A stretch of 64,000 nucleotides of DNA from Salinispira pacifica. GTDB lineage: Bacteria; Spirochaetota; Spirochaetia; DSM-27196; Salinispiraceae. Location: contig NC_023035.1 of the NCBI RefSeq assembly GCF_000507245.1, positions 1,067,001 through 1,131,000 of the forward strand, read 5' to 3'. Of this stretch, positions 13,138 to 33,898 are shown one piece after another. A model generated the notes under the pieces. It was not told the DNA's origin, ran no database searches, and saw nothing but the letters and a program-made list of their open reading frames with translations. The translations under genes were made by a program, and so were the position numbers. Each line of letters begins with the position of its first letter. The first letter of the stretch is position 1.

Positions 13138-13160
13138 TATAATCTCCATTGGAGAACGGT

Positions 13161-14396: not shown

Positions 14397-14568
14397 CCCG
14401 TTTTCTCCCTGTCCACCAGGGTAAAGACGGCCGTTTTTAAAGCAGTCTGTGATGATACATTCATAAAGTTCCGATAGAATATGGAACCGGGACCGGGAGT
14501 CCCGGATGAAAATACAGATATCAGATGCAATGCTCAGATATCAATTGAAACAGCCCGAAGGAGACAGC

Positions 14569-17877: not shown

Positions 17878-17948
17878 GTAACCGTCAATTTACCAGGCCC
17901 TGCACAACCTGAGCTTTAGATGGAATAATTCTTCCACATGGAGGAATT

Positions 17949-18251
17949 ATGGATAAAAAAGTAGAGAAATGGAAGGCTATCACCGATCAATGGCGGGAAA
18001 GTGGACAAACCCAAAAGGAGTTCTGCCGAAATCACGAAATCAAGCTTTCAACGCTACATTACTGGATGAAGCGGGTTAAGAATTCCATGACCAGTGAATC
18101 TCCAAATCGGGATCTGGTCCACATTGAACCGAAGGGGCGCATGGCTTCTTCCAATGATATAGTAATAGAGATTGATCGAAGGTTTCGCATCATGGTGCCG
18201 GATAGAATCTCCTCCGAACGTCTGCAAGCAGTTTTGGCGGCATTCCGGTGA
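17949..18251 (+). CDS. tnpA: IS66 accessory protein TnpA
   Basis: Protein of 100 residues with an N-terminal helix-turn-helix of the IS66 TnpA/orfA type: WRESGQTQKEFCRNHEIKLSTLHYWMKR. It is a small accessory protein needed with TnpB for IS66 transposition; its precise role is not settled. The stop overlaps the tnpB GTG start by 4 bp. Only 71 bp separate it from the left end. Confidence 0.92.
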   Translation: MDKKVEKWKAITDQWRESGQTQKEFCRNHEIKLSTLHYWMKRVKNSMTSESPNRDLVHIEPKGRMASSNDIVIEIDRRFRIMVPDRISSERLQAVLAAFR

Positions 18252-18595
18252 TTCCTGATCTGTCCCAACTGGATATTTATGTCCGTCCAGGTGTTACTGA
18301 TATGCGCAAGCAGGTGAACGGTTTATCGGAAATTGTCGAGCAGAAGATGAACCACTTGGCCATGTCTGGATCCTTGTTTCTGTTCTGCAATCGGAACCGG
18401 AGATTACTCAAATGTATCTGGTGGGACCGCAACGGGTTCTGTCTGTGGCTCAAGCGGTTGGAAAAAGACCGCTTTCCCTGGCCGGACACCGAGGAACAGG
18501 CAAAGCAGATCACCACAGCCCAACTACAGATGATTCTGGACGGCATTGATTTTTGGCACGCCCATAAGGCAATTGAGTATGTCGAATGTAACTGA
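18248..18595 (+). CDS. tnpB: IS66 accessory protein TnpB
   Basis: Protein of 115 residues matching IS66 Orf2/TnpB. It shows VRPGVTDMRKQVNGLS, LFLFCNRNRRLLKCIWWDRNGFCLWLKRLE and a C-terminal DGIDFWHAHK. The GTG start overlaps tnpA, so the pair is translationally coupled. Full family length, with no frameshift. Confidence 0.93.
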   Translation: MIPDLSQLDIYVRPGVTDMRKQVNGLSEIVEQKMNHLAMSGSLFLFCNRNRRLLKCIWWDRNGFCLWLKRLEKDRFPWPDTEEQAKQITTAQLQMILDGIDFWHAHKAIEYVECN

Positions 18596-18638
18596 AATGA
18601 CTTCCCTCAACTGCTGAGTCCATGCTAGAATTTAGATC

Positions 18639-20219
18639 ATGTTGAGCGCAGCGGAGATTGAACAGTTACCAGACGCAGTCAAGACCCATATAACCGCACT
18701 GGACTCCCGACTTGCTGAGCGCGAACTAGAAATCGAAGACCTTCAGGAACAACTTAAACTGGCCCGGTTTCGAAAGTTCGCCCGCACCAGCGAGTCCGCT
18801 TCTGACCTACTGCAGACGATGCTGTTTGAAGAGTCGCAGGTCGCCTCGACACCGGCAGATGATACGGATGCCACAGACACAGTTACAACAGTCACGTCTC
18901 ATACCCGAAAGAAACGGGGGCGAAAACCATTATCCGATGACCTACCGAGGGTCGATGTCATCCACGACATCCCGGAAGACGAGAAGCACTGTGGATGCGG
19001 TCATGAGCTCTCCAAAATCGACGAAGAAGTCAGTGAAAAACTGAAAACCATCCCCGAACAGTTTTTCGTCGAACGGCATATACGGCCCAAATATGCCTGC
19101 CGTAAATGTGAAGGTTCCGGGGACGAAGACAAACCGGTGTTCCGTATTGCTCCGGTTCCTCCGTCCATCATCCCTAAGAGTATTGTCACCCCGGAGCTTC
19201 TGGCATTCATTATTCAGAACAAGTTTGTCGATCATCTACCCTTTTACCGGCAGGAAAAGCGCTTTGAACGGGTTGGAGCGAGAATCAGCCGGCAGGATAT
19301 GTCAAATTGGCAACAGAAAGCGTACGAGCTACTGAAACCCTTTAAAACCCTCATGAAAGCGCAGATTCTGTCCGGATCGGTCGTTCAGATGGATGAAACC
19401 ACCGTCCAGGTCATGAATGAAGAGGAAAAATCCAATACCAGTAAATCGTATATGTGGCTCGCAAGAGGAGGCCCGCCTGATAAAAAGGTGGTGGATTATG
19501 AATATCACCGAAGCCGCGGGTCAGACTATGCAAAAAATTACCTCAAAGAATTCTCAGGCTACTTACAAACCGACGGGTATGTTGGATACGAAACAGCTCT
19601 CAAGAACCGGAACGATATCGTACATGTTGGCTGTATGGCTCATATTCGCCGGAAATTCTTCGAAGCAGGCAAGTCATCAAAGAAAGCCGGAAGCGCTCAT
19701 GAGGCGGTTTCGAAAATCGCCAAGTTTTACCGTATAGAGAAAGAACTGCGTAGCCTTGATCTGTTAGATGAAGAATTTATCTCTGAACGCAAGGCACGAA
19801 TTGCACCGGTAGCCAAAGATTTCAAAGCATGGCTCGACAAGAAAGCCCTGAGCATTCGCCCCACCAGTGCCACTGGTCAGGCAGTAAGTTATGCGCTCTC
19901 GCAGTGGGACAAGATCATGAAATATCTCGAACATCCTCAGCTCACCCCGGACAACAACAGTTCGGAAAATGCTATTCGTCCTTTTGTGCTTGGACGCAAG
20001 AACTGGCTATTCAGCGGGAGCCCACAGGGGGCAGAATCCTCCTGTTTCATGTTCTCGCTCATCGAGACTGCCAGACAGAATGGTTTGAACCCCTACGGCT
20101 ATCTGGTTCATGTATTCACCCGTGCACCAGAGATTGCCCTTTCTGGAAAATGGGAAGAATTACTGCCCTGGAACATTAAGGACGAACTCTTGGAAATGAA
20201 GTCGATTTTACAGGCTTAA
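18639..20219 (+). CDS. tnpC: IS66 transposase TnpC (DDE)
   Basis: Transposase of 526 residues. An N-terminal coiled coil (ALDSRLAERELEIEDLQEQL) leads to an RKFARTSES region. A zinc-binding stretch follows with CGCGHELSKI and YACRKCEG. The catalytic core has Asp in VQMDETTVQV (about 250), Asp in LQTDGYVGYE (about 310) and Glu in NNSSENAIRPF (about 441). The family C-terminus (GRKNWLFSGSPQGAESS) is present. It ends 12 bp before the right end of the element and is intact. Confidence 0.96.
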   Translation: MLSAAEIEQLPDAVKTHITALDSRLAERELEIEDLQEQLKLARFRKFARTSESASDLLQTMLFEESQVASTPADDTDATDTVTTVTSHTRKKRGRKPLSDDLPRVDVIHDIPEDEKHCGCGHELSKIDEEVSEKLKTIPEQFFVERHIRPKYACRKCEGSGDEDKPVFRIAPVPPSIIPKSIVTPELLAFIIQNKFVDHLPFYRQEKRFERVGARISRQDMSNWQQKAYELLKPFKTLMKAQILSGSVVQMDETTVQVMNEEEKSNTSKSYMWLARGGPPDKKVVDYEYHRSRGSDYAKNYLKEFSGYLQTDGYVGYETALKNRNDIVHVGCMAHIRRKFFEAGKSSKKAGSAHEAVSKIAKFYRIEKELRSLDLLDEEFISERKARIAPVAKDFKAWLDKKALSIRPTSATGQAVSYALSQWDKIMKYLEHPQLTPDNNSSENAIRPFVLGRKNWLFSGSPQGAESSCFMFSLIETARQNGLNPYGYLVHVFTRAPEIALSGKWEELLPWNIKDELLEMKSILQA

Positions 20220-20231
20220 ATTTACGCTTAC

Positions 20232-20239
20232 GCTTGAAT
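20232..20239. repeat. IS66 target-site duplication, right copy
   Basis: GCTTGAAT, matching 17870-17877. It restores the 30-nt 3' portion of CRISPR repeat 31, including its -35-like and -10-like elements. Confidence 0.92.
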
Positions 20240-20853
20240 CAGATCTTTGAAATGGTAGAATCTCTACTTGCCATCTGTCAATCATTTCTTTGTTGTGGCT
20301 TGAATCAGATCTTTGAAATGGTAGAATAAATCTGGTGAAAAAAGTAGCCGGAAAGGAGTTGTGGCTTGAATCAGATCTTTGAAATGGTAGAATGCGGAGG
20401 TAATAGTTATTAAGACCCAGATAGTTGTGGCTTGAATCAGATCTTTGAAATGGTAGAATTTTTGGAAAGTATTCATAAATAGAGTCTTCGTTGTGGCTTG
20501 AATCAGATCTTTGAAATGGTAGAATCAGGAATCAGTAAACCCATGTCTCCGGTACGTTGTGGCTTGAATCAGATCTTTGAAATGGTAGAATAAGGGGGAA
20601 ATTTATGCCGATTAATGTTAAGTTGTGGCTTGAATCAGATCTTTGAAATGGTAGAATCCTTGCCGTTGACGGAAGCACGACGACACGTTGTGGCTTGAAT
20701 CAGATCTTTGAAATGGTAGAATTAATTATAATGATTATATAGGTGGTCCTAGTTGTGGCTTGAATCAGATCTTTGAAATGGTAGAATTTGGCTTTTTGAA
20801 AGGTTCCCCGGCCTTGCGTTGTGGCTTGAATCAGATCTTTGAAATGGTAGAAT
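20232..20853 (+). CRISPR. CRISPR array, second segment (3' part of repeat 31 plus repeats 32-40)
   Basis: Continuation of the array after IS66. The 3' part of repeat 31 ends at 20261. Full repeats start at 20292, 20358, 20424, 20490, 20556, 20622, 20687, 20752 and 20818. Spacers are 30 bp, except two of 29. All nine full repeats match the consensus, including the last one (20818-20853), so no terminal degeneration is seen at this cas-proximal end. Total for the locus is 40 repeats and 39 spacers. Confidence 0.97.
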
Positions 20854-20958: not shown

Positions 20959-21297
20959 TTAAAACATCTCCAATTGGGAAGGGGTTTGGGGCATGGACGT
21001 GGCTGCTTTCCCTGTAAAATTTTCGATAGCAGAGTACTGCTTATCGGTTAAACTAAAAATACTCACCTGCCCGGAGCCCGGCAACATTGCCGAAATACGA
21101 CTTTTATGAACTTCAACCGATTCATTGCTTGTGCAAGCTCTCATATATACAGAATACTGAAACATGGTGAATCCATCACGCAGCAAGTCTTTTCGAAAAT
21201 CACTGGCCACTTTCCGTTCCTGCTTTGTATTCGTGGGTAAATCAAAGAATACTACTATCCACATAATTCTATAGGCACTGATTGCCCCATGTCCCAT
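20959..21297 (-). CDS. cas2: CRISPR-associated endonuclease Cas2
   Basis: Cas2, 112 residues, scaffold of the Cas1-Cas2 spacer-integration complex. The ferredoxin-fold start WIVVFFDLPTNT carries the conserved Asp. Next come the R-K-D helix (FRKDLLRDGFTMFQYSVYMR) and the C-terminal GQVSIFSLTDKQY typical of type II Cas2. The start at 21297 lies two bases after the cas1 stop with AAGAAG upstream. It is the last gene of the cas9-cas1-cas2 operon. No csn2 or cas4 follows, which fits subtype II-C. Confidence 0.95.
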   Translation of the reverse strand: MGHGAISAYRIMWIVVFFDLPTNTKQERKVASDFRKDLLRDGFTMFQYSVYMRACTSNESVEVHKSRISAMLPGSGQVSIFSLTDKQYSAIENFTGKAATSMPQTPSQLEMF

Positions 21298-21299
21298 GG

Positions 21300-22202
21300 C
21301 TATAGCTTCTTGAATTTTGGAAACATCGGCTTCATTGTTTTGTCAGTGAAATGTCGTGCAATAGATGCCGTTGTCAGGCTCAGACCATTGCTTAAAGGAC
21401 GTTTCTTTTCAGGAAAATATACATCCCGGGTAAGGGCATTTAACATATCAGCTTTGTCCTCCTTTGTAAGATCAGCCTTATTCAATAATCGGTCCGGTGT
21501 AGTTGTTTGAAGTACTTGTGCATCTACGAATGGACGATAGGGTTCCATAATGTCATCAGCCAGTGCAAAACTGTTATATTGATTCCTATGGTGAATACCA
21601 ATAGTAGGAAGAAGTCCGGATCCGCTAAGCGAACGGGCTACTGCTGCCCGCAGAATTGCATAGCCATAATTCAGTTTTTTGTTAGCTAACAAGTCCCTGT
21701 TTGAACGCGTGTATCCCTCCGGCATCACAGTCTTCCAGTAGGATTTAGCAGCAACCGCTTCTCTATTGGTTGAATCATCGCTCTTTACCTCTTTGCTGCA
21801 TGCACGGAGTAGCTCTGGTATTTGAAGCTTGCTAAATTCAGCCACGGCTATCTGATTGCGGATTTTTCTCTCGACTATGTGTTTCCATAATGCCTTCTTT
21901 ACCGGTTGCTTTACTTCGATCTGTGATCGCTGTAATTCATGTTGAAGATGGTGTGAATCCAGGTTTAATACCATTCCGGTTGGCATGTGTTTACTATTGC
22001 AGTAGATGATAGCCGCATTATTTTCCAAAAGGGTTGCAACAAGTGATTGGGAGTATGCAATTTGTGGGTTATCCAGGACTAGGAAGCCGATATCTTCAAT
22101 GGGTGCTGAAGTGATCAGCTCATGGTCTGAAAATGCCTCAAGTTGATTATTGGCCTGCTTGAGGTATACAGGTTTGCTGAAGTAGAGGGTTCGTTTGATC
22201 AT
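21300..22202 (-). CDS. cas1: CRISPR-associated integrase Cas1
   Basis: Type II Cas1 of 300 residues that integrates new spacers with Cas2. The N-terminal beta domain begins MIKRTLYFSKP. Metal ligands are visible as Glu in NREAVAAKSYWKTV, His in GIHHRNQYNSFALADD, and the following Asp/Glu in DDIMEPYRPFVD. The ATG at 22202 overlaps the cas9 stop (ATGA), with GGAGG ten bases upstream inside cas9; the longer frame from 22262 lies wholly within cas9 coding DNA and is rejected. Intact. Confidence 0.96.
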   Translation of the reverse strand: MIKRTLYFSKPVYLKQANNQLEAFSDHELITSAPIEDIGFLVLDNPQIAYSQSLVATLLENNAAIIYCNSKHMPTGMVLNLDSHHLQHELQRSQIEVKQPVKKALWKHIVERKIRNQIAVAEFSKLQIPELLRACSKEVKSDDSTNREAVAAKSYWKTVMPEGYTRSNRDLLANKKLNYGYAILRAAVARSLSGSGLLPTIGIHHRNQYNSFALADDIMEPYRPFVDAQVLQTTTPDRLLNKADLTKEDKADMLNALTRDVYFPEKKRPLSNGLSLTTASIARHFTDKTMKPMFPKFKKL

Positions 22203-25200
22203 TCTAAATTCACCTCCCCGGTGGTGGCTACCTTGACTCTTAACGGATTTTGTTCCTTCCAAGCTTTGAAGCTTTGTATCCCGAGGTAGTACGGCTCAAA
22301 ATCTCGATCCAATGTGCTTTCTGTATGAAGGCGGAAGCAGTAATACATTGAAGACAACTTCTGTACCCGGTATAGATGCCGTGAGACAAGCTCCTGGGGA
22401 AGATCTCCCTGCAGCTGCTCATCACCTAATCCAAGCAAAAACGTATCGTTTATGTGAAGGGTGGTAATAATCTTACCGGGTTCCGGAAGCTGATAAACGC
22501 TTTTCCCAGCAAGTCTTGCCTGAACAGCATCCCAGAAAGTAACCGGGTGTTCTTTATAGTTGCCGTCTGAATCACGGTATATGATGAATGCGTAGTTATT
22601 GCGTGGGTTCACGTACTGGTTTATACCTGTATGCCATTGCACTGCATTACCCAGGTTCTCCCTGATTCTCACCTTCTTTATTGGATTTCCGGGCTTACCG
22701 GAGCTTGGCATTATAACCTGGTAATCATTACCCTTTGTAAACCATTCACCTTTTACTTTTTCTTTCTCATCAATGGAGTAACCATTTTCTTCGACGAACG
22801 TTCGAAGAATTTCATGTGTGCCAGCATCAGCAATTTTACTCAGAGAAGTCAAATCTGTTATTTGCTTTCGAACGTGGTATCCCGGTTCATCACTTCCCGG
22901 TATATAGTGCTTACCGTAAACAGTGTCCTTGTGCAGTTGACCCCGCACACTCATGCCTTGGGATACATATGTGCGTCCATTAAGTCTTGTGTTCTTTTTT
23001 ATTCTCTTGATTATTTCCCTATTTTGGCGATGAACCACCAGAATGCTGTTAATTGAATTTAATGCATCGGCTCGAAAGTTGTCCCAGGGTAACGGGAACT
23101 GTGGCTTAGGAGCGCTGTAGCGCTGTCTTTTCTTGATCTTTAAAAAATATCCGCTAAGTTCCCGCAACTGCCCCGTATTCAGTAGGGCTATTGTCAGAGC
23201 ATCTATGGCGTGATGTCGATGATCCATACGGTTTTTTCCGGGGTTAAATACAAGACTCCCGTCTTCCTGGAACACAAAACCGGAAAGGACATTTTTTCCC
23301 TTTCCGTTTTTAGGTTTTATGTTCTTTTTCGGATAAAAACGCATATCCCGTGGTTCACAGTTAGCTATAGCGAATGCGGGGCCGGATGGGGTTCCTTCAG
23401 GAGCATCCAAAGCTATTCTGAAATTGCTTTCCGCGGTAAATCTGTAGCTTTGGTCAATTTTACCCTTAATGAGGAACTGATGTTCCGCTATTGCAGGAGT
23501 AGGTGTAAACATCCGCACGACCTGAAGTATCTCCTGAAGGTCTAATGGGATAATCAAAGCAGATTTATTATCTTGAGGGGGGATATCGAACAGACACTTT
23601 CGTTTGTCGATAAAAGCTTCAACTTTTCCATCCCTATGCTTGGTTCGTTTAATCAATAGCTCATTTTTACCCGGCTTTTCCCCTCTCTTCTCCCAACGAA
23701 GTTCTCCATTCACGGGTATATTCACCCAATATGGGGCATTATCATCATATTCTCCAGGGGGAAGCATCAGTTTAACAGGCAAGGAATTCAACATGAGAGA
23801 TGGTGACTCGCGATCTTTTACCTGAGCACGGCCTTTCAGCCAGATGGATTTGGTATCTTGTGAGGGTAGTTTTGAGAATAAAGGGAGATATTTTTCAACT
23901 GATAATAGTGAGTAAACCATCCACCCGGGAGAATCGTATGTACGATGCTCTACACTTACTTCTCGTGTTTGGCTTTGCCCTGTAAATTTACGATCAACTT
24001 TGAATATGCCGTTTTTCATTTCTCCACTTATAAGGATATCAGATGCCCGTATCGCTGGAGGAGGGAGTTCCTGTTCGCTTAGTTCGATAATGACCCCGTC
24101 GTCATTCATTACCGCCCAATACATTCCTGCATTTCCTTCGAAATTGGTTTTGATTGGAGGTGATAGTATTGAGTTTAGCCCCCACATTCTTCTGACTTTT
24201 GCTGTCAAGCTGCCCGGGAAAACATAGACTTGATCACAAATTGTGGAAAGATAATCCCGTGCAGCCTTGCTGATGTAGCGAGTATCATTGAGCTGTCTCT
24301 GTAAAAATGCTTCTGGCTCGTAATCACGGGTGGATACAAATCGCTTTGCTTTTTCGTAAGGTAGAAGTGTAAAGGCTCTTGCCTTCACTACTTCCCAGTG
24401 ATCGGGATCAGATTTATAAAACTGGTACGGCGTTTTCTCTCCTTTTTTTCCATTTTCTTCGGCGATGCAAAGGGTTTTATTGCTCAGGCTGTCGTCCAGG
24501 GAAATACTATATGGGATTATGTGCTCTACTTGAACCTTGTTGTCGTTACCAAATACATCGGTTATAGCCAAGGATTGACCTGTGTAGGGGCATTGAACAC
24601 TTTGACCTTGAACGCTGTTCTGTATCTCCTTGTAAAGAATATACTTTTGGATATTTTCACGGCTGGGTGAAAGACCGAATTTTTGCAGTTCAATTTTTGC
24701 ATCGTTGTTTCGCTCTGCCCGCTGATTATTCTCCCAATGCATTCGTCTGCGCACATCTCTCGGGAGCTTCAATTCCCGGGCAAGTTCCACTTTGATTTTA
24801 CTGAATTGCTCTCCGTCAGGGAGATATTGCTCTACGAGAGTGTTAACGAGTGTTCGCAGTTCCTGCAATGCTTGCTGTACAATAGGGTTGCGAAGGTTTG
24901 GTAGTTCACTGAGATAGTAACGATTGTTCTGGACACTCATCTCCTGACTGTGATGGTACAACTTATACGTCTGATTCATGGAAATGTTGAATGTCTGCAT
25001 AACATATTCCCGAAGCGCATCAGTGAAACTTTGGTTCACATCCCGGTTATTTTTTTCTTTCAATTTGGAAACGTGTGAAATGATTTCATCAGCATTTGCA
25101 TCAAATGATTTTTCACCTATCACACGCCTGATTCCGGCAAATATTACTGCGTCATTGTAAAGCATCCCCATCTGAAGAAATGGATTGATATTTCGTACCG

Positions 25201-26575
25201 CCTTCAGAGAGAGTGAGCTGTAATCGGTGTTTATCTTGTATTTGTTAAGCTGCTCAATGGAAACATCAATGTTATAGCTTCTTTGAAACTTCTCTTTGAG
25301 TTTTTCGCTTTTATCGTAGAACACGAGATCGTTCCAGATAGAATGGAAAAGTTCCCAATCAATATTTTCAACGTTAGAAGTGTCCGTCACCTTGGAAATA
25401 AAGGCAGTTGTCGGGCTGCCGGGAACTTTATGATCATCTGCATAATTGAATTGCACTCCAGTTTTTTGAATCTTCTTTTTTAAATCGCTCATCTTAACTG
25501 CTTTATCTTTTGAGAGAAGAAGAATGATTACATCTTTGCGATCAGTCTCGTTTAGTTTTTCCCCCGCTCCGTACTCGATTTGATTGGCAAATTGCATAGC
25601 TCTGTAGTATTCAAACTCAGGGTGAGATATCTGGCATACTGACTTTCTTTTCTCGTAGCGGCATTTGCTCAGGAGATGCTTTTGCGATTTCAATGGTTTC
25701 TGGTAGAAAAGAATTCCTTTGTCTGGATTGCCAAGGTAATCCTTCAAGCTCACAGTTTGTTCGCGGCAGATAAAATCACCCTCGATTTCGAACGAAATTC
25801 CAGCCTTTTTATATGCTTGAAGCTTGCGCCTGTGTTCACTGCTCCCGGCTGGTCCGTAGTACCGCTTGTTTCTGCTATGTACAGTCTCATTTTCAAGTCC
25901 AAGCTTTCCTGCCTGACGTTCCCAAATTTTATTGAATTCGTCTACATACCAGTTGCGGAGGGTGTAACGCCCTCGTAATCGTTCATTGCCATCAGACTTA
26001 ATCCGGAGTGAATTCAAGTACTCACCAAGGGTTGCATATTGTTGAAGAAGATTTTTTGTCTCATCTACACCGACGGTGTCTTCATTCCCTTTGTATAGAG
26101 CACCATCTTCATTACTTTTACGTCCGGTTTTGAACCCCCTATGATGAATTATGTGATAGAGGATTCTTCCAAACTCGAACCGGGAAATGTCTTCATGCAA
26201 TGCCCTATCTCTCAACTCGTATGGATTTAGTTTTAACCAAGAATTAAATTCGGATGAGGATGGAAATTCTTGTTTCTTTCCTTTCCGGTATTTTGCATAA
26301 CTTTCAAGTTCATCTTTGCTCAAGGGACACATTTTGAAGTCTACGAGTGTTCTCAATAAGACTATTCGACGCTGCTTTCTCCTGAGTGTCTGTCTCCGAG
26401 CCTGGCGGGATAAACGGCGATCCTGGTTCTTATATGATTCCTTCCCGGTTCCAATATCCGTGGCAGCACCAGGGAAAACTCTCACTCCGGTCTTGATTAT
26501 GTTCTGTTGTTCTTCATCCACCAGCGCCCAACCAAGGGAGCTGCTACCTAAATCCAATCCAAGGGTGTAAGGCAT
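22199..26575 (-). CDS. cas9: CRISPR RNA-guided endonuclease Cas9 (large, II-C-like)
   Basis: Cas9 of 1,458 residues from ATG 26575, where AGAGG lies six bases upstream (the adjacent ATG at 26578 is possible). RuvC-I is YTLGLDLGSSSLGWA with the catalytic Asp at residue 8. The Arg-rich bridge helix is near 50-75 (RRLSRQARRQTLRRKQRR). RuvC-II is KVELARELKLPRD near 597. HNH is VQVEHIIPYSISLDDSLSNKTL near 680 (catalytic His and Asn). RuvC-III is HRHHAIDALTIAL near 1122. The C-terminal region has VRGQLHKDTVYG, as in II-C proteins. It is far longer than the 1,000-1,100 residues common in II-C but near the length of large Bacteroidota proteins. All nuclease residues are present. The gene is visibly AT-richer than its metabolic neighbours. 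Confidence 0.97.
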   Translation of the reverse strand: MPYTLGLDLGSSSLGWALVDEEQQNIIKTGVRVFPGAATDIGTGKESYKNQDRRLSRQARRQTLRRKQRRIVLLRTLVDFKMCPLSKDELESYAKYRKGKKQEFPSSSEFNSWLKLNPYELRDRALHEDISRFEFGRILYHIIHHRGFKTGRKSNEDGALYKGNEDTVGVDETKNLLQQYATLGEYLNSLRIKSDGNERLRGRYTLRNWYVDEFNKIWERQAGKLGLENETVHSRNKRYYGPAGSSEHRRKLQAYKKAGISFEIEGDFICREQTVSLKDYLGNPDKGILFYQKPLKSQKHLLSKCRYEKRKSVCQISHPEFEYYRAMQFANQIEYGAGEKLNETDRKDVIILLLSKDKAVKMSDLKKKIQKTGVQFNYADDHKVPGSPTTAFISKVTDTSNVENIDWELFHSIWNDLVFYDKSEKLKEKFQRSYNIDVSIEQLNKYKINTDYSSLSLKAVRNINPFLQMGMLYNDAVIFAGIRRVIGEKSFDANADEIISHVSKLKEKNNRDVNQSFTDALREYVMQTFNISMNQTYKLYHHSQEMSVQNNRYYLSELPNLRNPIVQQALQELRTLVNTLVEQYLPDGEQFSKIKVELARELKLPRDVRRRMHWENNQRAERNNDAKIELQKFGLSPSRENIQKYILYKEIQNSVQGQSVQCPYTGQSLAITDVFGNDNKVQVEHIIPYSISLDDSLSNKTLCIAEENGKKGEKTPYQFYKSDPDHWEVVKARAFTLLPYEKAKRFVSTRDYEPEAFLQRQLNDTRYISKAARDYLSTICDQVYVFPGSLTAKVRRMWGLNSILSPPIKTNFEGNAGMYWAVMNDDGVIIELSEQELPPPAIRASDILISGEMKNGIFKVDRKFTGQSQTREVSVEHRTYDSPGWMVYSLLSVEKYLPLFSKLPSQDTKSIWLKGRAQVKDRESPSLMLNSLPVKLMLPPGEYDDNAPYWVNIPVNGELRWEKRGEKPGKNELLIKRTKHRDGKVEAFIDKRKCLFDIPPQDNKSALIIPLDLQEILQVVRMFTPTPAIAEHQFLIKGKIDQSYRFTAESNFRIALDAPEGTPSGPAFAIANCEPRDMRFYPKKNIKPKNGKGKNVLSGFVFQEDGSLVFNPGKNRMDHRHHAIDALTIALLNTGQLRELSGYFLKIKKRQRYSAPKPQFPLPWDNFRADALNSINSILVVHRQNREIIKRIKKNTRLNGRTYVSQGMSVRGQLHKDTVYGKHYIPGSDEPGYHVRKQITDLTSLSKIADAGTHEILRTFVEENGYSIDEKEKVKGEWFTKGNDYQVIMPSSGKPGNPIKKVRIRENLGNAVQWHTGINQYVNPRNNYAFIIYRDSDGNYKEHPVTFWDAVQARLAGKSVYQLPEPGKIITTLHINDTFLLGLGDEQLQGDLPQELVSRHLYRVQKLSSMYYCFRLHTESTLDRDFEPYYLGIQSFKAWKEQNPLRVKVATTGEVNLE

Positions 26576-26591
26576 CATTTACCTCTCATAG

Positions 26592-26619
26592 TTGACAAAA
26601 TATCTAAATGTATTATAAT
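26592..26619 (+). promoter_or_regulatory. tracrRNA promoter
   Basis: TTGACA (26592-26597) and TATAAT (26614-26619) are separated by 16 bp, both perfect consensus, giving a start near 26626. The -10 lies in the palindrome ATTATAAT (26612-26619), so the minus strand also reads TATAAT (26617-26612) as a candidate cas9 -10. In that direction TGGAAA (26640-26635) would be a 4-of-6 -35 at 17 bp. Confidence 0.8.
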
Positions 26620-26625
26620 TCAAAT

Positions 26626-26703
26626 ATCTGATTCTTTCCACAATAAGGCTATACGCCGAAGTGCGGAAAGCACTATTGCCCTGCCTAGGCAGGGCGTTTT
26701 TTT
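26626..26703 (+). ncRNA. tracrRNA
   Basis: Trans-activating CRISPR RNA predicted from pairing. The plus strand at 26621-26644 is an anti-repeat, complementary to repeat positions 1-24: 1-7 pair (one G-U), 8-10 form a 3x3 internal loop, 11-19 pair, 20 mismatches and 21-24 pair. The probable transcription start (about 26626) trims the outermost five bases. Downstream follow AATAAGGC as in Neisseria-type tracrRNA, a small GGC/GCC hairpin, a hairpin AGTGC/GCACT (26660-26673), and terminator GCCCTGCC-TA-GGCAGGGC (26678-26695) with seven Ts. Divergent from cas9. Ends are inferred. Confidence 0.88.
26678..26703 (+). terminator. Rho-independent terminator of tracrRNA
   Basis: Perfect 8-bp stem GCCCTGCC/GGCAGGGC with a two-base TA loop, followed by G and TTTTTTT. 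It forms the 3' hairpin of the tracrRNA. The remaining 127 bp to the stop of the racemase gene (26704-26830) is AT-rich and holds no gene I can support. Confidence 0.85.
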
Positions 26704-26830: not shown

Positions 26831-28663
26831 CTATTCATCAGGCTCAGAGATCACCGGCAGTATCCGTTTACCCAGGGCCGACAGCAGGAAGCGGGGCATG
26901 TTTGCGCTTGCCTCCCTGCTGGAGCGGATGTAGGCCGAGTCAAGGCTGGCTTCGTCCGGTTCGTCGTCGTCAATTTCCAGAACCCTCAGGGTGTTGTATG
27001 CCGCCGTCATTTCCATGACCAGGTGGGTTTCCCGGTTGGTGAGCCCGTCATTGCCGTTGTCCGCAACCCTTCCGCTGAACTTCAGGTAGAGCCCCTCGGT
27101 TCCCATGGAGGTTCGCTTCAGGGACTGGCGGATGATTTCACGCATGGGGATGAGGGAGATCTCCTCCATGGTGAACACCTGGATGTTCAGAGACCTGATA
27201 ATCTGGGCCGCATCTTCTTCTATCTCCCGGACCCCCAGCAGAACAATGTTGCTCAGATCCAGACTTCTGCTGATCTGTTCATTGTCCCTGCCCAGCACCC
27301 GGCTCAGTTCCTCGCTCCGGATGGTGGAGTCCACCCACAGCAGGCCGAACTGGTTCATGCTTGCGGCAGCGGCTTCAAGCCCGGTAACGCACAGTTCCCG
27401 CCCCCCGAGAACGGGAATGGCTCCCGGTTCTATCTCCCCGGCCAGCTCCTCAACCCCGAGTCCTGCTTCGGTTCTCCGGAACCGGTAGTTGAGTCTTTCC
27501 AGCCTGGTTTCAAGCTCCCGGCCGTAGCGTTCGTTCTGAAAGAGCCGTCCCACCAGTAACACAGAGCGGCGGCGGGGGTGTCTCAGATGTTCCGGGAGAA
27601 TCACCCGTTTTCCCACATAGGCGCTGGTCATGCAGGCCAGCAGGGCCGAATAGTTGGGGATAAATTCCACGCTTTCACCCAGCCCGGGCTCGGTTTCCAG
27701 GGAATTGATATCAACAAGAAGATGATCAGACGAGGCTCCGAGAATGGATATACGGGGATTCGCAGGTTCAAGCCCTTCCACATCCACATCTTCCCGGCCG
27801 ATATTCAGGATGCCTCTGAGAATATTGCCCCGGTCCTGAAACACCGGCGTTGCTCCGAAGGCATCCTGTCCGGTGATCCCGATGGGAACCGAGGGTTTTC
27901 GTTTTTTTTCGATAATTTCAGCGCTCAACAGAAAGGCTTTCTGGCTGGTGCCCGGCCAGGCCCGTCGTTCAACGGTTTCCCGACCCAGAAGGATGGCTTC
28001 GCCGATCCGCAGATTGTTCACCTTCCGGGGAACGCCCCCCTCTGCCAGCAGATTCAGGGAGCTGGAGTTCCCACCGGATATGATGGGCAGGGGGATGCCG
28101 AAGCGGTTTTCTATTTCATCCGCGTAGCCCGCCAGCCTGCCGAGGTTTTCCTCACTGGGAATCACGCCCCCGTAACAGGTCAGATTTGTACCGATGCCCC
28201 GGATCCGCACCCCTTCCATCTCCATAACCCGGGATGCTGTCTCCATAAGATCCTCGGGCCAGATACCCTCCCGCAGATCACCAAGATCCACCATGAGAAT
28301 AATATCGTGCACGGTACCCACTGAGAGGGCCACATCGCTGAGACGCTGGATCACCGAAAGTTCGGAGTTCAGGCTGAGATCCACACTGCGTACGATCTCC
28401 TCCGCCGCCGAAAGGGGGGGGATGCGCAGCAGCATGATGGGAGCGGAAATGCCTCCCGCCCTCAGACGGTGGATGTTCTCCAGCCGGCTTTCTCCGATCA
28501 TGGTGACTCCGCCCCGGAGCATGGCTTTGGCAACCTGGGGCATGCCGCAGCTTGCCTTGGTGACTCCGGTTACTTCTATGCCGTGCTGTGTGCAGAGTTC
28601 GACAATGACCCGGGTGTTTTCCTCTATCCGGGCAACATCGACCATCACTTCCGGTCCGCTCAT
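26831..28663 (-). CDS. orr: Ornithine racemase fused to a degenerate arginase-like domain
   Basis: Residues 1-355 are a PLP-dependent amino-acid racemase of the ornithine racemase type. The PLP Lys is in VTKASCG (Lys36); later come GTNLTCYGG, ISGGNSSSL and NNLRIGEAILLG. It would convert L-ornithine to the D-ornithine used by the aminomutase. Residues about 366-575 follow the ureohydrolase (arginase) fold: GGREL where arginases have GGDHS (420), WVDSTIR for WVDAHTD (443), LLGVREIEEDAAQIIRSLNI for the GxRDxD region (475), KFSGR for SFDVD (528), and DGLTNRETH for GGLTYRE (539). Five of six metal ligands are lost, so this half should not hydrolyse arginine. Usual racemases are about 350 residues. 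The start overlaps the GlmL-like gene by 4 bp; last gene of the ord-ora operon. Confidence 0.85.
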   Translation of the reverse strand: MSGPEVMVDVARIEENTRVIVELCTQHGIEVTGVTKASCGMPQVAKAMLRGGVTMIGESRLENIHRLRAGGISAPIMLLRIPPLSAAEEIVRSVDLSLNSELSVIQRLSDVALSVGTVHDIILMVDLGDLREGIWPEDLMETASRVMEMEGVRIRGIGTNLTCYGGVIPSEENLGRLAGYADEIENRFGIPLPIISGGNSSSLNLLAEGGVPRKVNNLRIGEAILLGRETVERRAWPGTSQKAFLLSAEIIEKKRKPSVPIGITGQDAFGATPVFQDRGNILRGILNIGREDVDVEGLEPANPRISILGASSDHLLVDINSLETEPGLGESVEFIPNYSALLACMTSAYVGKRVILPEHLRHPRRRSVLLVGRLFQNERYGRELETRLERLNYRFRRTEAGLGVEELAGEIEPGAIPVLGGRELCVTGLEAAAASMNQFGLLWVDSTIRSEELSRVLGRDNEQISRSLDLSNIVLLGVREIEEDAAQIIRSLNIQVFTMEEISLIPMREIIRQSLKRTSMGTEGLYLKFSGRVADNGNDGLTNRETHLVMEMTAAYNTLRVLEIDDDEPDEASLDSAYIRSSREASANMPRFLLSALGKRILPVISEPDE

Positions 28664-30105
28664 GAAGGTTCCCTCCCTGCCTGTTTCTGGCCGGTCTGCT
28701 CCGGCGGCAGTTCCATGCCCAGGCTTTCAGCCAGAAGTTCAAGAACCGCCTCCGGATACTCTTCCGCCAGTACGCCCAGGCTGGACATAATGTAGCGGGT
28801 ATCAAGCACAATGGCAGCCTCCGGCGGGGGGAACAATTCCACCCCCCGTGCGGATTCCAGCACCCGGCTGAGTATTTCCCTTCCGCCGGGCAGACGGGTC
28901 AGTGCTCCCCCGGTGCCGATCACCGTCCGTACGGCGCTGAGATCCTTTCCCTGGGCCAGCTGCTGCTTCCCGGAGATAGTATACATGCTCCTCAGCCTTC
29001 CGGCATGCCGCTGTAGAGCCCTTTTTGCGGCATGGAAGCAGAGGGTTTCTGCGATCCTCAGTTCATCGGGGTTCCGGGGAACCGGTGGCAGGGCATCCAC
29101 CCCCGCCTCCAGGGCTTCAACTGATTCACCCAGACTCTCTGCAATTTTCTGTGATCCTGCCAGCTTGAGAACCTGGTGGCGGTTCAGGTAAAGCCCCAGA
29201 TCCCCCTCCACGGTGCGTTTCCCCCGGGGTTCCGGGGCGATGAGGATCCGTTCAATTTCCGGTGAGGCGTCGCACACCGAGTGAAGGTCCGTGGTTGCTC
29301 CGCCCACATCGAACACCAGAAGGTTGCCGATTCGCCTGTTCAGGGCCATGGCGCTGCGCATTACCGCCCCGGGCACGGGCATGATCTGAGCGTCTATCAA
29401 ATCCCGGATATGCTCCATCCCCGGTGCATGGACGATGTGCTCTTCAAACACCTTTTGAATGATATTCCGGGCGGGCTCAATTACCAGCTCATCGATTCGG
29501 GGATATACGTTGTCACAGATATGAAGGGGCAGGGGAGTGTTGTCGAAGAGGGTGCGGATCTGCCGGTGATTCTCACAGTTCCCCGCATAAATGACCGGGA
29601 CGCTTCGCCCCTCACAGATCAGCGCCGATACAATGGCCCGTGCGTTGTGCAGGGCCGTATCGCGCTCACCGTAATCCACTCCCCCGGCGATCATGATGAT
29701 GTTGGGCAGGGCATCCAGCATGCTCCGGATATCCTCAGAGCGCATTTTCCCGGCAGTAATCAGGGAGATATTGGCGCCGGCCCCCAGGGCGGCTTCCCGG
29801 GCGGCCTTCACCGTCATATCGTAGGCCAGGCCGTGTACGCTCATTTTCAGGCCGCCTGCGGCTGAGGATGATGCAAAGAACCGGCCCCACCGAAGCTCCG
29901 GTACACCCAGGCTTTTCTTGAGCTCTTCAACGGCCTGCTCCAGGCCGATGCGTACATCCCCCTGCTGAACCGAGCTGGGAGCTGCTCCCTGGCCCAGAAA
30001 GCGGGGCCGGGGAGAGCGGGCCGCCCGGGGGGAATCCATGCCGGAAAACGCGCTCACAACGGTGGTGGTGCTTCCGATCTCCGCAGAGAGGATATCAACC
30101 TGCAT
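28660..30105 (-). CDS. GlmL/MutL-like ASKHA ATPase of ornithine degradation
   Basis: Protein of 481 residues related to GlmL/MutL, the ATPase encoded beside B12-dependent glutamate mutase; it is not the mismatch-repair MutL. Sugar-kinase/actin-fold nucleotide motifs are visible: ILSAEIGSTTTVVSAF at the N-terminus, LVFDVGGATTDLHSV (phosphate loop) near 265, and VIGTGGALTRLPGG near 390. It sits directly between oraE and the racemase, overlapping one base at its start and 4 bp at its end. The likely role is maintaining or reactivating the adenosylcobalamin-dependent aminomutase; this comes from context and relatives and is not shown by the sequence. Confidence 0.75.
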   Translation of the reverse strand: MQVDILSAEIGSTTTVVSAFSGMDSPRAARSPRPRFLGQGAAPSSVQQGDVRIGLEQAVEELKKSLGVPELRWGRFFASSSAAGGLKMSVHGLAYDMTVKAAREAALGAGANISLITAGKMRSEDIRSMLDALPNIIMIAGGVDYGERDTALHNARAIVSALICEGRSVPVIYAGNCENHRQIRTLFDNTPLPLHICDNVYPRIDELVIEPARNIIQKVFEEHIVHAPGMEHIRDLIDAQIMPVPGAVMRSAMALNRRIGNLLVFDVGGATTDLHSVCDASPEIERILIAPEPRGKRTVEGDLGLYLNRHQVLKLAGSQKIAESLGESVEALEAGVDALPPVPRNPDELRIAETLCFHAAKRALQRHAGRLRSMYTISGKQQLAQGKDLSAVRTVIGTGGALTRLPGGREILSRVLESARGVELFPPPEAAIVLDTRYIMSSLGVLAEEYPEAVLELLAESLGMELPPEQTGQKQAGREPS

Positions 30106-32354
30106 CAGCTCTTCCTGTTTTCCACCAGGAAGGTGGCCACGTGTATTCCCTTGGTTCCCCGGCCGAATCCCGCATCCACGCCCTGCTTCACCGCAAGGTC
30201 GGGGGTCACCTGGGTGCCGCCTGCGATAATCAGAATGTTATCGCGCACGCCTTTCTCAACCGCCAGATCATGGACCCGTTTCATATTTTTGTAATGAATT
30301 TCGTCATGGCTGATAATCGTGGAAACCAGGATGGCCTGGGCGTTGATCTCAATTGCCGCATCCACCAGCTTTTCAACAGGTACGCTGGTTCCCAGATAGT
30401 GGCATTCAATTCCGTAGCCCTCAATTCCGCCGTGTTTGATATCGATGATCTCCCGCAGGCCCACCGAATGCTCGTCCTCGCCCACCGTACCAGCCACGAT
30501 GGCCATGGGCCGGGCCTTGATCTCTGCCCTGATCTCCTCTTCGCTGAGTACCTTGGGCTCCGGGGGAATTTCCAGTTTGGAGGTATCGATGGTGAAGGCA
30601 ACCTTCCCCTTCAGTTCAATGCGGGTTCCTTCCGCCGGATGCATCACCTCCGCGTGAATCACCTCGGCTTCGGAAAGGTTCATGTTCTTTGCAGCCTCCA
30701 GGGCCGCAAAGCGGGCGGTCCGCTGGTCGGTGGGCAGAAACATGGTGAGAAGCACCGTGCCGTCCCCCTGCCATTCCATCTCCGGTTTGATGATGGATGA
30801 GTTGCGTAAATGGGCGGTTTCGGCCATCCGGACCGCCACATTATCGTTTTCATCCAGCTCATCAATAAACACAATTTTCTCGGGCTTTTCGAAGGTGCAG
30901 CCGTCAATGAGACTGGAGGGGTTTTTCTCGGCCTCTGTTCCGTAGGGGGCAAGATTGTTGTAACCGAAATGCGCGGTCACCGGAGCCATGTAATCATCGT
31001 CCCGGGGATATACGGTTCCCGCACCCACGCCCCCGTCACGTTTGCGTACAATGGGATCCCCGTTGCGCTCCGGGTACTTTCCCGAGTCCACAAACATTCC
31101 CGCTTCCACCGCATCGAAATATCCCCCCAGCTCCAGCATCTCTTCCATGTAGAGAACCGCCCGCTCCTTCAGTTCCCGGACATTCTCAGCCAGTTCCCCT
31201 TCGTCCCGCCGCAGGGAGACCATCTCCATCAGGCCGTCCATGCCGTTGAACGCCTGCTTGGCGGTATCGGTGCCCTCCACGTTGTAAATATGCCAGGGAA
31301 CATTCCGCCCTTCGTCGGGGGTGATGGTGGACTGGATTTCAGCCCGGGTGAACTGACTGATCAGGAGGTTCAGGGTATGGGTGACCGTGGCCTCCCTGGC
31401 CGATGACGTCATGTACTTGGTGTTCTGCTGGGCCCGCATCTTGTAATCCCGGAACAGTTCTCTCAGAGCCACGGCATAGGGCAGATCCAGCCGCATGGCC
31501 GGAGCGGGAGGTGCGCTGGGGGGTACTGTTGAGAGGCAAATATCCTCGGGCTTCATTCCCGCTTTCACGGAGAACATGGAGTTCAGTGCGTGCTGAACCA
31601 TCAGCTCGGGCATTACCTTCCAGGCCTGCCGGGCGGTGGCGTTGGCATTATGGGCGCCGTCAATCTGGGCGATCCCCGCCCATGCCATTACCCTCTTGGC
31701 AACCGCAGCATCCACAAAGGAGCGCACCATATTCACGTTCCGGTACAGCACGTTGTACTGGGGATCCTGGTGGGCGCCGTTCACCCCTTCTTCAGCGAAG
31801 AGAACCGCCATCTCGGGTCCGGCCACGCCGCTCACGTAGGAATGGTAGTTTATGGGCCGCCCCACCTCATCTTCTATGAGATCCAGGGCCTTTCTCTGGG
31901 CCCTCAGCTGCTTCCTGGTAATGGCAACCCCGCCGATCCCCTGGGGGCTGCCTTCCAGAAGACCGTCCATATGACTCTGCCCGGCGGTGCGGATCACCAT
32001 CAGATGATCGGCTCCGTGCCAGGCTGCCATCCGCATCCGCCGAATATCGTCCTCAAAGCGGCCGGAGGCGATCTCGGTGGTGATAGTGCTCACCGGCTGG
32101 GGATCAATATCGCCGAAGTAGTGGGCGGCGGGGAGGGGGACGGAATGGGAAAGGTTTTCGGTGGTCTGATAATACTCGAAGGGGCCGATCTGCCGCTTCT
32201 GTCCGCCGCCTTTGCGCCAGAACCAGCCCCGCCTCCGGGGATGATAATGCTCAAGATCCTCCAGGATCCGTTCCACATCCAGTTTTTCATTGGGATTCAG
32301 CTGCATGTGAGCTGATTTCCCTGTTTTATTGGGGTTTTCGGTGTTCATGTCCAT
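30105..32354 (-). CDS. oraE: D-ornithine 4,5-aminomutase, large subunit (B12/PLP)
   Basis: Large subunit of the adenosylcobalamin- and PLP-dependent mutase that converts D-ornithine to 2,4-diaminopentanoate. It has 749 residues, the family length. A TIM-barrel catalytic region occupies most of the protein (SHSVPLPAAHYFGDIDPQP near the start). The C-terminal Rossmann B12 domain shows DEHSVG near residue 628, matching DxHxxG with the base-off cobalt-ligand His, and later IIAGGTQVTPDLAVKQGVDAGFGRG. The start overlaps the oraS end by 10 bp, with GGAGG ten bases upstream. Confidence 0.95.
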   Translation of the reverse strand: MDMNTENPNKTGKSAHMQLNPNEKLDVERILEDLEHYHPRRRGWFWRKGGGQKRQIGPFEYYQTTENLSHSVPLPAAHYFGDIDPQPVSTITTEIASGRFEDDIRRMRMAAWHGADHLMVIRTAGQSHMDGLLEGSPQGIGGVAITRKQLRAQRKALDLIEDEVGRPINYHSYVSGVAGPEMAVLFAEEGVNGAHQDPQYNVLYRNVNMVRSFVDAAVAKRVMAWAGIAQIDGAHNANATARQAWKVMPELMVQHALNSMFSVKAGMKPEDICLSTVPPSAPPAPAMRLDLPYAVALRELFRDYKMRAQQNTKYMTSSAREATVTHTLNLLISQFTRAEIQSTITPDEGRNVPWHIYNVEGTDTAKQAFNGMDGLMEMVSLRRDEGELAENVRELKERAVLYMEEMLELGGYFDAVEAGMFVDSGKYPERNGDPIVRKRDGGVGAGTVYPRDDDYMAPVTAHFGYNNLAPYGTEAEKNPSSLIDGCTFEKPEKIVFIDELDENDNVAVRMAETAHLRNSSIIKPEMEWQGDGTVLLTMFLPTDQRTARFAALEAAKNMNLSEAEVIHAEVMHPAEGTRIELKGKVAFTIDTSKLEIPPEPKVLSEEEIRAEIKARPMAIVAGTVGEDEHSVGLREIIDIKHGGIEGYGIECHYLGTSVPVEKLVDAAIEINAQAILVSTIISHDEIHYKNMKRVHDLAVEKGVRDNILIIAGGTQVTPDLAVKQGVDAGFGRGTKGIHVATFLVENRKS

Positions 32355-32701
32355 ATGGCCCGGGCCTCCTTCCAGAATTTTCCTTCGGCCAGGGCCGCCG
32401 CAGCTTCGCCGATTGAGATGCCCTGATCTGCTGCGATGCGGTACACGATATGCCCTGCGCCTTTGCCCAGAAGTTCGTGGTCCAGGGCTTTTTCCACAAT
32501 TGCCGCCGCCTCAAGGCTGGAAATTCCCATCCGCAGCAGCACCGACCGTTCAATGGAGGGGCTGGTGTGATGGTAGGCCGTATCTATCAGCGGCTGGGTG
32601 AGGGCGTCGGCGAGCTGCCAGAACCGTTCCTCCAGCTGTTTTTCGCTCAAATCTGCCAGATGTTTTCTCCTGACCTGAAAATCATCCTTTCGCTCCTGCA
32701 T
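32345..32701 (-). CDS. oraS: D-ornithine 4,5-aminomutase, small subunit
   Basis: OraS, 118 residues (family about 120), the small partner needed to form the active OraE heterodimer. It is helical and soluble: DFQVRRKHLADLSEKQLEERFWQLADALTQPLIDTAYHHTSPSIERSVLLRMG, then a C-terminal GISIGEAAAALAEGKFWKEA. AAGGAG lies five bases before the ATG. It overlaps oraE by 10 bp. The 93 bp separating it from ord show no promoter I can defend, so it is probably read from the ord promoter. Confidence 0.93.
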   Translation of the reverse strand: MQERKDDFQVRRKHLADLSEKQLEERFWQLADALTQPLIDTAYHHTSPSIERSVLLRMGISSLEAAAIVEKALDHELLGKGAGHIVYRIAADQGISIGEAAAALAEGKFWKEARAIWT

Positions 32702-32794
32702 ATCTGCTCCTTATTCTGCTTGTTCGGTTTTGTAATGCCCAATCCCGGGCCCGGGCAGGGGCCGGACCGGGGCCTGGGCCGTGCCCGGGTGCTC

Positions 32795-33898
32795 CTATTG
32801 GTGAATCATCTCCCGCATATCTCCCAGAATAGCTCGGGGAACCGGCAGATCCAGCATGGTTTTCAGTCCAGGAGATGCGTTAATTACATGGGGAATCATG
32901 TTGATGCACATGGCGATGGTGCCGATGCCGCCGGGAACCTCGGGTTTGATCTGGAGGTTGATATTCGGAGTGCCCTTGATTCTGATGTAATCTCCGGTTT
33001 CGATTCCTTCGGCCTCCGGCTCGATCTGCTGGGGGTGAAGCATTTCGATTCTGGTAACGCCGTCCACCTCACCGTGGCCTTCCATGCGGCATCCGGCCAC
33101 ATCTCCGGGCTCAACAGACGCGTACTCGGTCCTCCGGGGAACGCCGGTGACGATGGCTTCCATGCTCTGGCGGATTGGTGCGCTGAGCTTCCACCCCAGG
33201 GCGTCGGCGATCATGCCGATGCTCTCTTGGAAGCCCACATGCCCGGCCAGGCTGCCGTCCTGTGCGCCCCGGCGGAACTCTTCGGGGCTCAGTCCCACTC
33301 CCTGCTCCTCCATTACCGCTGGTCCGAAGGGGGAGAGGCTGTTCACCCGTTCCGCCTGAATATGGTCGATATCCAGACAGGCGCCGGTCATCATCACCAC
33401 CAGAAGGTCCATGATCAGTCCCGGGTTGATTCCCGTCCCCAGCACCGTGACGCCGGCCTTCGCTGCATTCTCATGGATTTTTCCGGCCAGTTCCGGTTCT
33501 CCGGCGGCGGGGTAGGCCATCTCTTCGGCGGTGGATATTATATTGTAGCCGGCCTCAATGAGGGTGATGATCTTTTCATAGGCCTTCCTGGTAAATGAGT
33601 CGGTGGCCAGAAGAGCGATGGATGCATCCCGGGCGTCTTCCATGGCTTCCTCGATGGATTCCCTGATCACCACGTCCCGTGGGTAGCCCGGTCCGGCGCT
33701 GCCTCCGGTCCCAGCTCCGGCGCTGTCAGCTCCGCCGGAGTTCATCTTCAGAACCTCCAGCATGCTTTTGCCCCGCCGTTGGGGATGCATGTCGCAGATC
33801 CCGGATATTTCTACGCCGGTTTTCCCCAGCAATGCCCTGGCCATGCCGCTTCCCATGGCTCCGAATCCCCAAATCAGCACTTTCACCGTATCGCTCAT
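32795..33898 (-). CDS. ord: 2,4-diaminopentanoate dehydrogenase
   Basis: NAD(P)-dependent oxidative deaminase converting 2,4-diaminopentanoate to 2-amino-4-oxopentanoate and ammonia. The Rossmann start VLIWGFGAMGSGMARALL and the dihydrodipicolinate-reductase-like layout (LGTGINPGLIMDLLVV, NINLQIKPEVPGGIGT) match Ord. At 367 residues it is about 15-20 longer than usual, because a Gly/Ala/Ser stretch near 54-75 (SGGADSAGAGTGGSAGPG) interrupts an otherwise conserved loop. First gene of the ord-oraS-oraE-glmL-orr operon; divergent from arcC with two copies of the 18-bp palindrome between them. Confidence 0.92.
   Translation of the reverse strand: MSDTVKVLIWGFGAMGSGMARALLGKTGVEISGICDMHPQRRGKSMLEVLKMNSGGADSAGAGTGGSAGPGYPRDVVIRESIEEAMEDARDASIALLATDSFTRKAYEKIITLIEAGYNIISTAEEMAYPAAGEPELAGKIHENAAKAGVTVLGTGINPGLIMDLLVVMMTGACLDIDHIQAERVNSLSPFGPAVMEEQGVGLSPEEFRRGAQDGSLAGHVGFQESIGMIADALGWKLSAPIRQSMEAIVTGVPRRTEYASVEPGDVAGCRMEGHGEVDGVTRIEMLHPQQIEPEAEGIETGDYIRIKGTPNINLQIKPEVPGGIGTIAMCINMIPHVINASPGLKTMLDLPVPRAILGDMREMIHQ

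Follow-up and report, generated by a model that had tools for sequence, protein, structure and literature searches.

The CRISPR-Cas9 locus of Salinispira pacifica L21-RPul-D2 (CP006939.1), a hypersaline-mat spirochaete, raises the question of which RNA would pair with its crRNAs for Cas9, and whether the short stretch upstream of cas9 encodes it. The genome table of the paper on this strain gives "CRISPR repeats 0" (PMC4511686), against 40 repeats found here, so the array was missed in that table. The genome consists of one contig of 3,782,798 bp; the window, meaning the whole 64-kb stretch of DNA analysed, corresponds to its bases 1067001 to 1131000, and positions are those of the window unless they are identified as genome positions. 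A preliminary description had proposed an unannotated tracrRNA gene on the plus strand. The present analysis bears this out: the plus-strand element at 26626–26703, about 78 nt from anti-repeat to terminator, is by its sequence almost certainly the tracrRNA gene of a type II-C-like CRISPR-Cas9 system, because homologues lie at the same place beside cas9, their stems covary, their anti-repeats track the repeats of their own genomes, and the genome holds a single copy (Table 1).

Table 1. Features of the S. pacifica CRISPR-Cas9 locus, in window positions.
Feature	Position	Strand	Description or basis
CRISPR array	15885–20853	+	40 full-length 36-nt repeats, 39 spacers of 29–30 nt
IS66 element	17878–20231		tnpA, tnpB and transposase by profile; inside one repeat
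cas2	20959–21297	−	112 aa, TIGR01573
cas1	21300–22262	−	320 aa, TIGR03639 type II Cas1
cas9	22199–26578	−	1459 aa; divergent from tracrRNA
Predicted tracrRNA promoter	26592–26619	+	TTGACA 26592–26597, N16, TATAAT 26614–26619; exact consensus
Possible cas9 promoter	26612–26640	−	TGGAAA-N17-TATAAT, 10/12 consensus; putative
Predicted tracrRNA gene	26626–26703	+	about 78 nt; 5′ end placed from the −10 element, 3′ end at the T-run
Predicted transcribed anti-repeat	26626–26644	+	cofold; own-repeat fit over nine genomes
Nexus-like hairpin	26647–26657	+	GGC-TATAC-GCC; fold
Second hairpin	26660–26674	+	AGTGC-GGAAA-GCACT; fold
Predicted intrinsic terminator	26677–26703	+	stem 26677–26696, T7 26697–26703; scan

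Cas9 and Associated Genes

The cas9 product matches the TIGR01865 profile at 512.7 bits (cut-off 100), with HNH_4 and RuvC_III also present, and its gene is the only place in the genome that exceeds this cut-off. Three cas genes, cas9, cas1 and cas2, were identified by profile, with neither csn2 nor cas4 in the locus, and by this gene content the locus is type II-C-like. The csn2 model has no match in the genome and likewise none in the control genomes. None of the ten flanking proteins matches PADLOC at E 1e-5, and other NCBIfam names apply to nine of them. The genome contains one RNase III gene. Its sole cas4-family gene (G000:C1:616684–617238), which scores over the curated cut-off, is located about 466 kb from the locus and could be a sign of a second CRISPR system.

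The locus is placed between genes of arginine and ornithine metabolism. Genes for arginine deiminase and ornithine carbamoyltransferase are found on one side (13149–15564), and the other side (26831–33898) encodes an ornithine racemase-like protein, a GlmL-related ornithine degradation protein, D-ornithine aminomutase OraE and 2,4-diaminopentanoate dehydrogenase. The racemase-like protein, at 429.7, stays below the cut-off of 480 and, at 610 aa, is longer than its model of 351 positions.

In a 27-row Cas9 tree, a branch (84/85, 82% of bootstrap trees) separates the Cas9 proteins that go with this tracrRNA from the rest, and the S. pacifica protein forms a long outer branch (1.59) with moderate support in this tree, which contains no typed II-A, II-B or II-C references. 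It is 30–33.5% identical to ten aligned relatives, with insertions at residues 225–278 and 804–1110. The D/E/H columns D9, H686, H1123 and D1126, which we take to be catalytic positions of Cas9, are kept and are among those invariant in the 11 aligned Cas9 proteins. The larger insertion (23249–24169, minus strand) comprises 307 residues within RuvC-III, just before the HHAIDA motif, and is absent from the ten aligned relatives. It has no match in Pfam, among 295 further phylum genomes or in viral contigs, and its matches in the PDB are at chance level; a single-sequence fold model of the insertion had a mean pLDDT of 30.8 and was discarded as worthless.

A Family of Homologous RNAs Beside cas9

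Relatives of this Cas9 were found in 8 of 100 kin genomes and, at E 1e-20, in 26 of 296 phylum genomes, both counts including S. pacifica itself, as well as at four loci in genome contigs. Besides the window, a homologous RNA adjoining cas9 and divergent from it was identified at ten loci of the phylum and in one Kapaibacterium MAG, and these 12 loci were used to build alignment A1 and covariance model R1. Within the S. pacifica genome R1 matches a single place, the site of the predicted tracrRNA gene, at 76 bits.

Across the phylum, R1 at E 0.01 matches 19 of 392 genomes, again including S. pacifica; nine of these are in the training set and ten are new. A divergent cas9, seen as the N-terminal part of a homologue on the other strand, adjoins seven of the ten new matches, these seven being partly dependent, since over the model L096 has the same sequence as L097, a training member, and L105 the same as L106. 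The remaining three (L108, L109 and L110) have no Cas9 within 1.5 kb on either side; L109 and L110 are weak matches (E 0.003 and 0.008) and were left out of alignment A2. L108 (G320:C1:153283–153351) scores 52.5 bits, has no T-run, and is perhaps the relic of a lost locus. When R1 was applied to 20 other pieces of DNA, mostly from other Cas9 branches, four weak matches were obtained (E 0.009–0.17), and candidate RNAs of other Cas9 branches (L045, L078, L088, L091 and L038) stand outside the comparative set.

Promoter, Hairpins and Terminator

The exact TTGACA-N16-TATAAT promoter that had been described upstream of the RNA was recovered and is the sole exact copy found by scanning the 64-kb window. 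With up to one mismatch allowed, two sites are present in 64 kb where 0.15 are expected by shuffling, and no shuffle gives two. In 17 of 19 tracrRNA loci compared, in a scan that left out L108 and was confined to the surroundings of the expected place, the best promoter lies at a similar distance. The spacing from the −10 element to ACAA is 15–21 nt in 17 of the 19, with outliers of 35 nt in L043 and 27 nt in L039, and the promoter score is above the 95% level of the shuffles in 13. Transcription of the S. pacifica RNA probably starts at 26626, 7 nt past the −10 element and at the first base of a 9-bp helix with the repeat. The compact scaffold of about 80 nt proposed earlier agrees with the resulting length, but such a length is not unusual, the C. 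jejuni tracrRNA transcript being 73 nt according to the available text of PMC4607530.

Downstream of the anti-repeat, both hairpins and the terminator stem of the preliminary description were found, the latter reaching 8 bp only in the scan, where a U-G pair is counted, with 7 Watson-Crick pairs in the fold. As judged from sequence, the RNA gene has its own promoter and terminator and is linked to cas9. The nexus and the 3′ hairpins are conserved by structure: in 18 distinct sequences 96.8% of 252 cells are paired, and 10 of 14 pairs change on both sides. Every nexus cell is paired in these sequences (100%), and two of its three pairs never vary; both-side changes occur in all four modelled pairs of the second hairpin and in five of the seven modelled pairs of the terminator. 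Covariation in this alignment, which was fitted to the covariance model, is 0.395 compared with 0.184 ± 0.018 in shuffles (0 of 500) and at most 0.111 with the partner slid; a plain MAFFT alignment gives double changes in 9 of 14 pairs. The AATAAGGC element, which presumably resembles the tracrRNA motif of Neisseria, had been called Neisseria-type; the element itself is there, but it is not peculiar to Neisseria, and 20 aligned family members carry (T/C)AAGG(C/T).

At the gathering score, Rfam identifies only a tRNA in the whole window, and its sub-threshold matches on the tracrRNA region are chance-like. One of these, to the Phe leader RF01859, would make the RNA a cis-acting leader of another gene, a reading that we find scarcely credible: the match reaches 22.9 bits, far below the gathering score of 55, the next long open frame (26831–28663) is on the minus strand, and the structure is accounted for by the tracrRNA family.

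Pairing with the CRISPR Repeat

The anti-repeat, which lies outside the array, is complementary to the locus's own repeat. Over 26619–26644 it shares 21 of 26 bases with the reverse-complemented repeat, and the full pairing contains a 3x3 internal loop at repeat positions 8–10, a mismatch at 20 and a G-U pair at 1. Cofolding with the repeat, which had been suggested as a check, pairs 26626–26634 with repeat positions 11–19 and 26638–26644 with positions 1–7, leaving the 3x3 loop between them. The loop and the mismatch described for pairing with repeat positions 1–24 are thus as stated, but the part that would be transcribed faces positions 1–19 only, since from a start at 26626 positions 20–24 would face promoter DNA; the claimed pairs at 21–24 and the mismatch at 20 fall in the 6-nt gap that separates the −10 element from the start. 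"Near-complete pairing" is therefore too strong for an anti-repeat of 19 nt, 16 of them paired, counted from this probable start. In the nine genomes compared, unbroken pairing stops between repeat positions 15 and 20.

Whether a better anti-repeat exists elsewhere depends on the measure. By local alignment, the site scores 34 and outranks every other place in the window apart from the array, the next reaching 29 and 60 shuffled repeats no more than 30. By raw duplex energy with repeat positions 1–24, however, places near 11638 (−25.3 kcal/mol) and 54535 (−24.3 kcal/mol) are slightly stronger than the tracrRNA site (−23.3 kcal/mol), in a scan of the window that excluded the array and was stepped every third base, so that the site would not stand out by pairing energy alone. 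Genome-wide, TCTGATTCNNNCCACAA occurs with zero mismatches in the array repeats, at the tracrRNA site and at one further place, 2546919 of the genome, which was rejected because a longer open frame covers it on the opposite strand. One-mismatch places also exist in the genome, and the three inspected, at genome positions 1025258, 1029225 and 1046241, are in a repeated stretch and by eye carry no tracrRNA-like tail. This stretch, with CACCATCCGTGACCATC...TCTGATTCGTGCTACAATT, is present in three copies in 21 kb (L010, L011 and L012).

Anti-repeats of the family follow the repeats of their own genomes. Nine of the 12 A1 loci could be compared, L082, L086 and L039 being left out for want of a clean array consensus, and own-genome pairing holds at 79 of 90 positions, with p = 5e-5 in a permutation that ignores kinship and includes three repeats, of the nine, that are alike at the scored positions. 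All nine anti-repeats fit the repeat of their own genome best or equal best; from the repeat side this is seen in seven of nine, the repeats of G100 and G348 pairing one position better with foreign anti-repeats. Related sequences inflate these figures and those for covariation, and the direction is clear.

The same observations bear on whether the small RNA is mainly regulatory, acting on host genes and not as a guide scaffold. Regulatory Cas9-associated RNAs have been reported, such as the scaRNA of N. meningitidis in the available text of PMC13431127; for the RNA described here, however, such a main role is very improbable in view of its one copy, an anti-repeat that tracks its own repeat, the nexus and hairpins, and the linkage to cas9. 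An additional second role for the tracrRNA is conceivable.

CRISPR Array and IS66 Insertion

The array is on the plus strand, opposite to the cas genes, and by sequence has promoter-like motifs in its repeats. The repeat reads GTTGTGGC-TTGAAT-N16-TAGAAT, with a TG one base before the −10-like hexamer; 37 of the 40 repeats are identical, and the promoter-like 28-nt core is intact in 39. In eight of nine repeats of the clade, a TTG hexamer stands at position 9, separated by 16 nt from the final six bases, and the repeat ends are TGn-TA(T/G)AAT in five and AATAAT in three, with AACAAC in G045 not fitting. Pieces of 3 of the 39 spacers gave no exact match in viral contigs, and no PAM was found since the search covered only these three.

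An IS66 element has inserted into one repeat, leaving the spacer at 17834 with 14 nt of its repeat. The insertion is flanked by an 8-bp duplication, GCTTGAAT, by which the repeat to the right retains its −35-like part, TTGAAT. Were every repeat to act as a promoter, spacers to the left and right of the element would therefore stay expressed; were there only one promoter, in the leader, IS66 would cut off one side of the array.

An array interrupted inside a repeat could also mean that the system is dying since IS66 cut it and that the tracrRNA is a relic. We consider this unlikely. The promoter, stems and terminator of the RNA gene are intact, cas9 is open over 1459 codons with its invariant D/E/H columns kept, cas1 and cas2 match their families, nearly all repeats are identical as noted above, and the promoter-like part of the right-hand repeat is whole despite the insertion.

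Proposed Guide RNA Processing

For a functional tracrRNA, we infer transcription, start sites, processing, Cas9 binding and DNA cleavage from the sequence. The tracrRNA would be transcribed from 26626 and form a duplex with crRNA, its 5′ 19 nt facing positions 1–19 of the repeat part of each crRNA, and the nexus, second hairpin and terminator stem would be the handle held by Cas9. Each crRNA is probably started by the promoter inside the preceding repeat, so that its 5′ end would be set by transcription. RNase III would then make one cut in the crRNA:tracrRNA duplex to create the 3′ end of the crRNA, followed by loading into Cas9. In C. jejuni, according to the available text of PMC3656092, transcription of each crRNA begins within the spacer from a promoter in the repeat, and the opposite end is produced by RNase III together with tracrRNA. 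Since the S. pacifica repeat resembles a promoter, like those mapped in C. jejuni, both crRNA and tracrRNA may be transcribed with 5′ ends that need no trimming.

A putative cas9 promoter on the other strand has the −10 of the tracrRNA promoter in common, within the palindrome ATTATAAT (26612–26619). The scan that includes this site gives 12 promoter-like sites compared with 11.9 in shuffles, which is no excess. A shared −10 as a conserved feature was rejected, the overlap being at least 4 nt in only 4 of 19 loci, with cas9 starts set by a loose rule, for which reason the 5′UTR lengths it gave were set aside. A wider proposal, in which these RNAs form a separate spirochaete tracrRNA family whose start trims the anti-repeat to about 14–20 nt, the repeat promoter sets the crRNA start, and one palindromic −10 (ATTATAAT) serves tracrRNA and cas9 in competition, is tentative and on balance doubtful. 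If true, both guide RNAs would be born with finished 5′ ends, and tracrRNA and Cas9 would be held in balance.

Comparison with Known Systems

The literature searched contains no paper that joins Salinispira with Cas9, and papers that mention both spirochaetes and tracrRNA, including PMC3936727, PMC4607530 and PMC12669027, do not describe this RNA in their available text, supplementary tables aside; it may already be listed in published surveys. The kind of RNA is well known and belongs to the usual equipment of such systems, themselves of a known kind, and understanding of the type II mechanism is unchanged. With the tracrRNA gene, the Cas9 system of a genome published with a count of zero CRISPR repeats would gain the RNA component that it lacked and be complete. 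The work also defines a tracrRNA family, open to sequence searches, that accompanies large Cas9 proteins of spirochaetes, and short guides, dual or single, can now be tested with this Cas9 and related ones.

Of the characterized systems, type II-C of C. jejuni offers several likenesses in the available text of PMC3656092 and PMC4607530: the cas genes are cas9-cas1-cas2 only, the tracrRNA has its own −10 element about 7 nt before the start, and the anti-repeat is complementary to the 5′ portion of the repeat. The C. jejuni tracrRNA, however, is found downstream of its array, with perfect pairing along 24 nt, whereas that of S. pacifica is upstream of cas9 and divergent from it, with a 3x3 loop and a transcribed anti-repeat predicted at about 19 nt. 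Three large Bacteroidota type II loci (L041, L040 and L118) and one further phylum member (L079, in G144) have weak R1 matches upstream of cas9 (E 0.009, 0.023, 0.17 and 0.12, respectively), and the alignments of L041, L040 and L079 with the S. pacifica family have CACAATAAGG and a CCG in common. These Bacteroidota loci and G144 nevertheless differ in their hairpins and repeats and belong to a separate, well supported Cas9 branch. In type II-C systems of Neisseria and Pasteurella the array is transcribed opposite to the cas genes, as given in the available text of Fonfara et al. (PMC3936727), and the orientation of the S. pacifica array would fit the same arrangement. The main text of Gasiunas et al. 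(PMC7606464), as available, names no spirochaete, treponema or Salinispira, and the sgRNAs it describes from several Cas9 clades have the same general plan, with a bulged duplex, a short nexus-like stem, two hairpins and a poly-U end.
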